Positions 22,124 through 41,925 of a DNA stretch of 64,000 nucleotides are shown piece by piece. The notes under the pieces are model-generated. The model searched no databases and had not been told where the DNA came from. It saw nothing but the letters and a program-made list of their open reading frames with translations. Origin of the DNA: Thermomonospora catenispora (GTDB lineage: Bacteria > Actinomycetota > Actinomycetes > Streptosporangiales > Streptosporangiaceae); NCBI RefSeq assembly GCF_006363815.1, contig NZ_RRYT01000007.1, positions 62,001 to 126,000 on the forward strand, written 5' to 3'. Position 1 is the first letter of the stretch, and the number at the start of each line of letters is the position of its first letter. Both the position numbers and the translations under genes were made by a program.

Positions 22124-22216
22124 CGGAGGCGTACGGGAATCGAACCCGCCGACCCGAGATGCTCGGGTCCGCCGGCTTTGAAGGCCGGGGAGCCCACCAG
22201 GCGCTCGCACGCCTCC
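22124..22216 (-). tRNA. selC: tRNA-Sec (anticodon TCA)
   Basis: The minus strand folds as a selenocysteine tRNA of 93 nt. It has an 8-bp acceptor stem GGAGGCGT/ACGCCTCC with discriminator G, a 5-bp anticodon stem CCGGC/GCCGG enclosing loop CTTCAAA with anticodon TCA, an extra arm of 8 bp GACCCGAG/CTCGGGTC with a 3-nt loop, and a T arm GCGGG-TTCGATT-CCCGT. The 8-bp acceptor and long variable arm are diagnostic. CCA is not encoded. It lies near selD, selA and selB. Confidence 0.97.
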
Positions 22217-39870: not shown

Positions 39871-41307
39871 ATGCCGCCCCTGCGACCGCCCGCGGACGCG
39901 GTGCACGTCACGCTGCCTCCCCGCCGGGCCCGCTACGGCGCCCGCACCCAGGTGCTCGTGGTCGGCGGGGGACCGGCCGGACTGGGCGCCGCGCTGGGCG
40001 CCGCGTCCGCCGGAGCCCGCGTCGTGCTGGCCGAGCGGTACGGATTCCTCGGCGGCAACGCCACCGCCGCCCTGGTCATGCCGTTGATGTCGTTCCACAA
40101 CGAGAAGCGGCAGCAGACCCCCGGCGAGGAGGTCCGGCTGCTGCCCACCGACCACGGCGAGGGCGACCCGCTGGTCGGGGGAGCGCTGTGGCGGCTGCTG
40201 GAGCGGCTCGCCGGGCGCGGCGGCGCCGTCGCCCCGACCGTGCGGACCGGCTACACGGTGCCGTTCGATCCCGAGCAGTTCAAGCTGGTCGCCCTGGAGC
40301 TGCTGGACGAGGCCGGCGTCGAGCTGCTGCTGCACTCGCTGGCCTCGGACGTGCTGACCGGCCCCGACACCCGGCAGGTGGTGTTCGAGACCAAGTCCGG
40401 CCCCATCGTCATCGAGGCCGACGTGGTGATCGACTGCACCGGGGACGGGGACGTGGCCGCGGCGGCCGGCGCCCGGTACGAGGTGGGCCGCCCCGAGGAC
40501 GGGCTGGTCCAGCCGATGACCTTGATGTTCCGGATGGTGGAGTTCGCCCGGCCGCGGTTCGCCGAGTACGTGCGCGAGCACCCCGACCAGTGGCGCGGCG
40601 TGCACGGGTTGTGGGAGCTCATCGAGCAGGCCGCCGCCGCCGGCGAGCTGGAGCTGCCCCGAGAGGATCTGCTGTTCTTCGCCACCCCTCATCCGCGGGA
40701 GGTGAGCGTCAACAGCACCCGGGTGACCGGGGCGCTGGGCACCAGCGTGTGGGACCTGACCCGGGCCGAGTGCGCGGGACGTCGGCAGATGGAGCAGATC
40801 GCCCGTTTCCTGCGCAGGCGGGTGCCGGGGTTCGAGGACGCCTACGTGGTCCAGAGCGGGGTGCAGATCGGCGTGCGCGAGACCCGCCGCATCATCGGCG
40901 ATCACGTGCTCACCGGCGAGGAGGTCCTGGGCGCCCGCAAGTTCGACGACGCGATCGCCCACGGCGCCTATCCGGTCGACATCCACAACCCCCGGGGGAG
41001 CGGGACGACGCTGCGCCGGCTGCCGTTGGGGGAGTTCTACGACATTCCGCTGCGGTGTCTGCAGCCGGCCGGGGTGGAGCGCGTGCTGGTGGCCGGGCGC
41101 TGCATCTCCGGCACCCATGTGGCGCACTCGTCCTATCGGATCATGCCGATCTCCATGGCCACCGGTCAGGCCGCCGGCGTCTGCGCGGCGCTGGCCGTGC
41201 GCACCGGGAGGCCGCCCCGCGAGGTGCCCGCCGCCGCCGTGCAGCGGGAGCTGCTGCTCCAGGGGGCGGTGCTGCGCGAGGAGCTGCGCCGAGCGGTGGC
41301 GGGGTAG
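39871..41307 (+). CDS. FAD-dependent oxidoreductase (FAD_oxidored type)
   Basis: A 478-aa flavoprotein: VLVVGGGPAGLGAALGAASAG binds the ADP part of FAD, followed by LAERYGFLGGNATAA, the IDCTGDGDVAAAAGA motif and a C-terminal VAGRCISGTHVAHSSYR plus MATGQAAGVCAAL. This matches the FAD_oxidored family of unknown substrate. GAGGAG lies about 8 nt before the ATG. It is cotranscribed with the pyruvyl-transferase-like gene; joint action on a cell-surface sugar is only a guess. Confidence 0.87.
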   Translation: MPPLRPPADAVHVTLPPRRARYGARTQVLVVGGGPAGLGAALGAASAGARVVLAERYGFLGGNATAALVMPLMSFHNEKRQQTPGEEVRLLPTDHGEGDPLVGGALWRLLERLAGRGGAVAPTVRTGYTVPFDPEQFKLVALELLDEAGVELLLHSLASDVLTGPDTRQVVFETKSGPIVIEADVVIDCTGDGDVAAAAGARYEVGRPEDGLVQPMTLMFRMVEFARPRFAEYVREHPDQWRGVHGLWELIEQAAAAGELELPREDLLFFATPHPREVSVNSTRVTGALGTSVWDLTRAECAGRRQMEQIARFLRRRVPGFEDAYVVQSGVQIGVRETRRIIGDHVLTGEEVLGARKFDDAIAHGAYPVDIHNPRGSGTTLRRLPLGEFYDIPLRCLQPAGVERVLVAGRCISGTHVAHSSYRIMPISMATGQAAGVCAALAVRTGRPPREVPAAAVQRELLLQGAVLREELRRAVAG

Positions 41308-41418
41308 CGGGCCGGTGAAATCCGAGCAAAATCCTCCGCCGGATCGGACCATGGAGCGCCCTGCGGACGGCATGCCGCGCGTCGATCGCGGAGCGGGGCG
41401 GAGGGCCGGGCAGGAAAG

Positions 41419-41530
41419 GCGACGCCGGGTGGATACGGGGGCAATCCACCCGGCGTCGCATCATCATCGGTGTTCCGACGGGGGCCCGGAACACCGGTAT
41501 GAGCGCTCCGACGGGGGACCAGAGCGCCGG
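41419..41530 (-). ncRNA. Candidate 6C-type small RNA: three tandem C-loop hairpins
   Basis: On the minus strand three hairpins follow each other. The first pairs 41520-41527 with 41503-41510 (one mismatch), the second is a perfect 10-bp stem (41487-41496 with 41468-41477), and the third a perfect 16-bp stem (41444-41459 with 41419-41434). All three loops are 9 nt and end in CCCCCGT. The tail after the third reads CTTTCCTG, a plausible terminator. A sigma-A-like promoter sits just upstream. Actinobacterial 6C RNAs are known for two stem-loops with C-rich loops, so this is probably a variant, with a third C-loop in the terminator. The same structure read on the plus strand could terminate the FAD oxidoreductase mRNA. 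Confidence 0.75.
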
Positions 41531-41535
41531 AATAA

Positions 41536-41567
41536 ATCGTACACCCGATCCCCCTGCGGTTAGTCAA
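41536..41567 (-). promoter_or_regulatory. Promoter for the 6C-like RNA
   Basis: On the minus strand TTGACT (41567-41562) and TACGAT (41541-41536) are separated by 20 nt, slightly long. Transcription would begin near 41529, right at the first hairpin. It lies immediately after the DUF3099 stop codon. Confidence 0.55.
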
Positions 41568-41574
41568 GGAAAAG

Positions 41575-41925
41575 TCATGCACCGATTTCCGGAGGAGGTC
41601 CGGAAATCTGCTTTCGGTCTGTCCCCAGACGGGGGGCCGAGCCGGCCGGATCGTCGGTCGGCTCCATCCGCGGCTGCGGCTCCCGCCCGCCGTTGGCCAT
41701 GACCACGCTCACGTACGGCAGGACCGTCGCCCCGACGACCAGCAGGAGCGCCACCCAGAACGGGGCCCCCGCCGCCGCCGCGATCACGGCCGTCACGAAG
41801 CACACCGTGCGGACGCCCATGGAGAGCAGATAGCGCCGCTGGCGGTACCCGATGTCCTGGGACAACGGCACCGGGGCGTCGGTGACGGTGTACACGTCGG
41901 CGCGTCTGCGGGGAAACACCTTCAC
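41575..41925 (-). CDS. DUF3099 small membrane protein
   Basis: A 116-aa protein with YTVTDAPVPLSQDIGYRQRRY before two hydrophobic helices (MGVRTVCFVTAVIAAAAG and FWVALLLVVGATVLPYVSVV) and a polar tail; this is the DUF3099 pattern found across actinobacteria. The start is GTG at 41925 (or 41919) without a strong ribosome site. Its stop is directly followed by the promoter of the small RNA. Function unknown. Confidence 0.85.
   Translation of the reverse strand: MKVFPRRRADVYTVTDAPVPLSQDIGYRQRRYLLSMGVRTVCFVTAVIAAAAGAPFWVALLLVVGATVLPYVSVVMANGGREPQPRMEPTDDPAGSAPRLGTDRKQISGPPPEIGA

Follow-up and report, generated by a model that had tools for sequence, protein, structure and literature searches.

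The window, a stretch of 64,000 nucleotides from Thermomonospora catenispora, carries on its minus strand an RNA element that we consider rather probably to be a stand-alone small RNA (sRNA) gene of about 110-117 nt, binding G-rich mRNA sites via redundant C-loops and ending in a hairpin that serves as a terminator, within a mostly DUF3099-linked family with one to three C-loop hairpins. None of the tested loci of this wider family is matched by Rfam 15. The features of the element, which lies at G000:C76:103412-103531 within its own genome, are listed in Table 1.

Table 1. Features of the C-loop RNA element and its upstream neighbour (positions in the window).
Feature	Position	Strand	Description	Basis
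Element	41412-41567	-	promoter TTGACT/20-nt spacer/TACGAT and three hairpins	sequence
-35 box TTGACT	41562-41567	-	7 nt past the DUF3099 stop codon	sequence
-10 box TACGAT	41536-41541	-	TG immediately before	sequence
Predicted transcription start, about 41529	41527-41531	-	base of hairpin 1	inferred from the -10 position
Hairpin 1 (H1)	41502-41528	-	loop UCCCCCG, 41518-41512	10 pairs, 4 with two-sided changes
Hairpin 2 (H2)	41468-41496	-	loop GCCCCCG, 41485-41479	11 pairs, 2 with two-sided changes
Hairpin 3 (H3), terminator-like, 16 bp	41419-41459	-	loop UGCCCCCGU, 41443-41435	16 pairs, 6 with two-sided changes
Pyrimidine tail CTTTCCT, short, probable 3' end	41412-41418	-		sequence; end inferred
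DUF3099 gene (PF11298)	41575-41925	-	directly upstream, same strand as the RNA	Pfam 3.5e-25; synteny

The three inverted repeats of the original prediction, with stems of 8, 10 and 16 bp and 9-nt loops, were confirmed, as were the TTGACT and TACGAT boxes, the CTTTCC tail after H3, the presence of CCCCCG in each loop, and the run of five Cs rather than the classic six in all three loops. The mismatch that had been assigned to H1 is actually a U-G pair. The minimum free energy of the fold is -70.4 kcal/mol, as compared with -46.9 +/- 3.6 kcal/mol in 200 shuffles (z -6.5), and the minimum-energy fold contains inner pairs additional to the stems first described. Cs 2-5 of each C-run have a predicted unpaired probability of at least 0.91, and the first C is less unpaired (0.58 in H1, 0.65 in H2, and 0.20 in H3). 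In H3, the G of CCCCCG is also unpaired at only 0.14. Since the first C and the G are mostly paired in the model, H3 may expose four Cs instead of five.

Covariation demonstrates the predicted hairpin structure. In an alignment of thirty three-hairpin loci (A1), the window's own sequence included, 99.9% of the cells are paired and 12 of the 37 pairs are changed on both sides, a number that was matched by none of 500 shuffles. Cells with two-sided changes number 50, as compared with 14.7 in the shuffles, and just 0-2 such pairs remained when the partner was shifted by 1-3 columns. The CCCCCG cores are invariant in all thirty sequences. Among the pair cells, 998 are Watson-Crick, 110 are G-U, none is A-C, and one is of another kind. 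Because the 110 G-U cells would be A-C mismatches on the plus strand, the RNA is a minus-strand product; a plus-strand RNA is ruled out by these wobble pairs and by the score of R1, a model of the element, which is 26.9 bits on that strand and 127.8 bits on the minus strand.

A DNA search of sixty genomes (the own genome and its relatives) found the element in thirty-seven, of which thirty-five belong to the family of the window's genome (hereafter f1), one to another family of the same order (f2, locus L028), and one to a further family (G045). Neither BLAST nor model R1 gave a convincing copy in two f1 genomes (G014 and G033), through either loss or an assembly gap, and no convincing copy was found in three genomes from another family of the order (G038-G040). 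With loci added by model R1 and by pattern, the three-hairpin set examined comprises 66 loci with 61 distinct sequences, which are only partly independent (L002 and L032, for example, represent one place); L151, at a rearranged contig end, was excluded. Exactly three CCCCCG cores are present in 66 of 66 loci, and UGCCCCCGUA is found in H3 of every one of them. The loop-to-loop distances are 30-34 and 37-43 and vary by single bases. This single-base variation of the linkers argues against coding sequence, and a coding region was therefore ruled out.

Outside f1, the family appears mostly in a shorter form. Model R1 matched, at E up to 0.01, 69 of the 394 genomes in the class: 41 from f1, each with E below 1e-12, and 28 from outside it, which score lower; at least 305 genomes were without a match. 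Twenty of the 28 matches outside f1 were inspected and nineteen look real. L072, which has no C-run loops, was rejected as a family member and excluded from the DUF3099 synteny count. Most of the loci inspected have an extended -10 box (TGnCATAnT) followed by one hairpin and a terminator-like hairpin, with loops such as CAUCCCCCGU in the first hairpin and UCCCCCCGUG in the terminator-like one. In an alignment of sixteen such loci (A3), none of them from f1 and from which L065, L066, and L070 were kept out for lack of a C-run in the first hairpin, 9 of 21 pairs are changed on both sides, as compared with 0-4 pairs in slid controls, and there are 20 cells with two-sided changes, as compared with 4.3 in shuffles. 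Model R2, built from these sixteen loci, scores 59.9 bits on the window element (E 1.8e-7 in a search of its whole genome), and the alignment covers H2 and H3. Across the class, with E up to 0.001, R2 matched 147 of 394 genomes, which represent 55 of the 137 genera, and at least 227 genomes were without a match; five of the 147 matches are confined to the terminal hairpin, and at least one match (G260, L329) is probably spurious. L329, which has a self-complementary loop and no DUF3099, was rejected as a family member. In a phylum-wide draw, R2 matched 15 of 396 genomes at E up to 0.01, and two of these matches are weak. Rfam at gathering scores gave no match in the fourteen shorter-form loci tested.

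A pattern scan of named genomes returned at least 118 loci, all of which were examined. Among these are 102 two-hairpin loci with TGNCATACT and a close variant in Embleya (L192), as well as fourteen three-hairpin loci (Nonomuraea, Microbispora, Nocardiopsis, Actinomadura, others, and MAGs) and the rearranged L151. In the two-hairpin form, TGNCATACT and the stem are 7 nt apart in 68 of 68 and 33 of 34 listed loci (101/102). Among the matches listed, the two-hairpin loci are mostly from Streptomyces, and also from Kitasatospora, Streptacidiphilus, Actinacidiphila, and a strain labelled Saccharothrix. In many Streptomyces loci in the range L102-L181, the extended -10 box is preceded by a stretch like ATCATGnnGTTCCGGTGC, possibly an activator site; no TTGAC box was seen by eye in these loci.

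Upstream of the RNA and in the same orientation, the DUF3099 gene is present in 28 of 30 loci, in 18 of the 19 real-looking loci outside f1, in 77 of 80 of the matches listed (it is missing from L109 and L176 of Nocardiopsis and from the cut L151), and in 37 of 38 of a further set of matches listed, where the exception, L206, is cut near the element. It was also found upstream in 16 of 19 additional loci, in just 2 of 12 additional loci picked among weaker matches, and beside the RNA at none of the ten f16 loci. The three-hairpin RNA is retained with no DUF3099 neighbour detected in L109 and L176, as well as in L030 and L031. The window element has both marks of the proposed DUF3099-linked family: a match to R2, and the DUF3099 gene as its immediate upstream neighbour in the same orientation.

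Promoter-like boxes accompany the RNA throughout the three-hairpin form. With the spacing left free, TTGAC was found 20 nt ahead of TAnnnT in all thirty aligned sequences of A1 and in 34 of 37 additional rows; of the other three, L142 and L061 have TTGAT, and the third is the rearranged contig end L151. All 64 loci with TTGAC (30 + 34) thus have the 20-nt spacer, and the two TTGAT loci fit this spacing under a pattern that itself fixed 20. From the -10 box to the first stem there are 7-9 nt in 66 of 66 three-hairpin loci examined. Since the spacers differ in sequence (50 distinct), the constant 20-nt spacing looks selected. A spacer of 20 nt, a length that the original prediction does not give, is long for a primary-sigma promoter, and a long promoter spacer is reminiscent of MerR-type activation. 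A G-run was also observed within the spacer (41542-41561 in the window, and in f1 relatives): GGG occurs in 65 of 66 loci, and GGGG in 32 of the 50 distinct spacers, as compared with a shuffled mean of 15. The run is possibly a regulator site, or a partner for loop pairing in a read-through RNA.

These boxes bear on a rival reading, in which the element is no more than the 3' untranslated region and terminator of the DUF3099 mRNA, perhaps processed from it, and lacks its own promoter. In most loci the element does follow DUF3099 immediately and in the same orientation, and this, like the terminator-like last hairpin, would fit such an origin. However, the boxes keep a fixed spacing and a near-constant distance to the first hairpin, the loops are invariant although termination does not need them to be, and the RNA is kept with no DUF3099 beside it in the four three-hairpin loci named above and in the f16 loci. 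An origin as a mere untranslated region is therefore considered unlikely, and an sRNA gene of its own is considered more probable.

The original prediction took the element for a homologue of the actinobacterial 6C RNA (RF01066), and the two are alike in their C-run loops on stable hairpins, in the terminator-like last hairpin, and in their actinobacterial hosts; 6C is known as B11 in mycobacteria. However, the covariance search that had been suggested gave no RF01066 match in the window at the gathering score of 47 bits, and none at E up to 10 on the 401 bases from 41300 to 41700. The genome has a separate 6C on another contig (G000:C24:20315-20390, 65.4 bits), to which neither R1 nor R2 gave a match. 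According to the portion of the source available, 6C is defined by two stem-loops, each with at least six Cs (PMC8388888), whereas the element has three stem-loops with five Cs each, the family having up to three such loops and a DUF3099 neighbourhood. A class-wide search found 6C in 111 of 197 genomes at E up to 0.001, 86 of these above the cut-off, and in twenty genomes where the positions of 6C and R2 matches were compared by eye, they never coincided. Therefore, membership of 6C was rejected, and we regard homology to it as very improbable. What stands of the original interpretation is an RNA element with conserved promoter-like boxes and three C-loop hairpins, which belongs to a family of its own with DUF3099 synteny.

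Other known RNAs were compared as well. Over the whole window, the sole match to Rfam 15 at curated thresholds is a selenocysteine tRNA (22125-22216, minus strand, RF01852, 74.3 bits). The best-scoring Rfam match at E up to 10 within 41300-41700 is ar7 (RF02342), an alphaproteobacterial sRNA that also has three successive hairpins with C-rich loops; its score of 26.8 bits is far under the gathering score of 60, so membership was rejected, and, given the different phylum, the common layout was read as convergent. In the available portion of PMC3765725, scr5583 and scr1434 are described as highly expressed, conserved Streptomyces sRNAs with a C-rich loop. The loop and the occurrence in Streptomyces recall the family, as judged by description alone and not by sequence, but that portion of the text does not place them beside DUF3099. 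The Streptomyces-type gene order, as seen by eye (tyrosyl-tRNA synthetase-like, DUF3099, RNA, MoaA-like), does not obviously point to either name. PmaR of Agrobacterium likewise binds several mRNAs by a C-rich loop, but it is a single spoon-like hairpin from another phylum with mostly positive regulation, as far as the accessible part of the paper describes it (PMC6234868). Searches by 6C and C-rich-loop sRNAs, Streptosporangiales small RNAs, DUF3099, sRNA names, and the loop sequence covered open-licence PMC main texts, and the element was not described in the text portions returned. The RNA family may thus be new in the sense of having no Rfam 15 match in the tested loci and being absent from the searched open-licence main texts; a supplementary list could hold the transcript.

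The number of C-run loops differs between members of the family. One loop is found in, for example, L066, L070, L327, L334, and the f16 loci, two in most members, and three in f1 and L028. When aligned with the first hairpin of Streptomyces, H1 and H2 of f1 score 21.5 and 17.5, and H3 only 11.5. Since H1 and H2 both resemble this hairpin, a hairpin duplication is the likely source of the three-hairpin form, as far as can be judged from such alignments. In six of the ten f16 loci (L337, L338, L342, L343, L328, and L065), the single C-loop hairpin is preceded by ACGGGGG, to which the loop CCCCCGU is exactly complementary; of the other four, L336 and L340 have five or six Gs but lack the A, and L339 and L341 have four Gs. 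The upstream ACGGGGG could be an internal partner of the C-loop. A broader proposal, which we offer tentatively and hold to be somewhat doubtful, is that of a second C-loop sRNA system alongside 6C across much of Actinomycetia, usually linked to DUF3099, in which the number of CCCCCG modules would serve as an evolutionary dial, set to one in several families, to two in Streptomyces, and to three in Streptosporangiales, and the f16 G-run would hint at built-in control by self-pairing or dimers.

The element very probably acts through its loops. A proposed mechanism can be described as follows. Transcription from the element's own promoter, behind the DUF3099 stop codon, would run from about 41529 to about 41413, with H1 at the 5' end of the RNA and H3 presumably serving also as terminator. 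The three rigid hairpins would display an identical CCCCCG module, which most likely pairs with ACGGGGG or GGGGG in mRNAs, probably near ribosome-binding sites, and this pairing would lower the translation of the bound mRNAs. By analogy with mycobacterial 6C/B11, the loops may be redundant copies: in the part of PMC10470900 available, the loops of B11 of M. abscessus act redundantly on G-tracts, either of the two C-loops repressing a reporter with a G-tract 5' UTR, with restoration by a compensatory mutation.

Targets were sought in 864 kb of the own genome, at 675 predicted start regions (-30 to +10). ACGGGGG is not enriched there, with 3 sites as compared with scaled expectations of 4.6 (upstream) and 3.6 (coding). 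GGGGG occurs 77 times, as compared with 55-56 expected from the flanks, and this excess could be explained by Shine-Dalgarno (SD)-like G-richness; the test is coarse because the simple start-calling rule favours SD-like starts. In a slightly wider start window, four genes have ACGGGGG. For one of these four, an ECF-sigma-like gene (G000:C11:92539), conservation was followed up, and the heptamer is absent in 28 of 29 other loci, including the two nearest relatives, in a comparison with many distant relatives; the sole other locus with the heptamer, L285, has it far upstream. Overall, a small specific regulon is possible, and a genome-wide role as SD-blocker is not supported.

The loops may instead bind a protein, either a C-rich-loop binder or one that is sponged. 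The lack of target enrichment at the 675 start regions would agree with this, and protein-sponging RNAs also show repeated identical loops in rigid hairpins. However, we know of no protein that binds CCCCCG loops in actinobacteria. The 6C/B11 precedent, moreover, acts by base pairing in the available part of the report (PMC10470900), and protein binding in place of mRNA binding is considered improbable. That the loops pair with G-rich sites in mRNAs is the preferred reading.

The near-invariant repeated loops, found in 35 of 37 f1 genomes and in the named Streptomyces loci, characterise a family for which Rfam 15 gave no match in the tested loci. To our knowledge, a recognised Hfq is generally absent from Actinobacteria, whose trans-acting sRNAs are understood in few cases. 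The element may provide a handle for their study, since it has three equal modules that can be mutated singly, a set of homologues for target prediction, and 6C/B11 for comparison. A connection with the uncharacterised protein DUF3099 is also suggested, and the family reaches antibiotic-producing genera.
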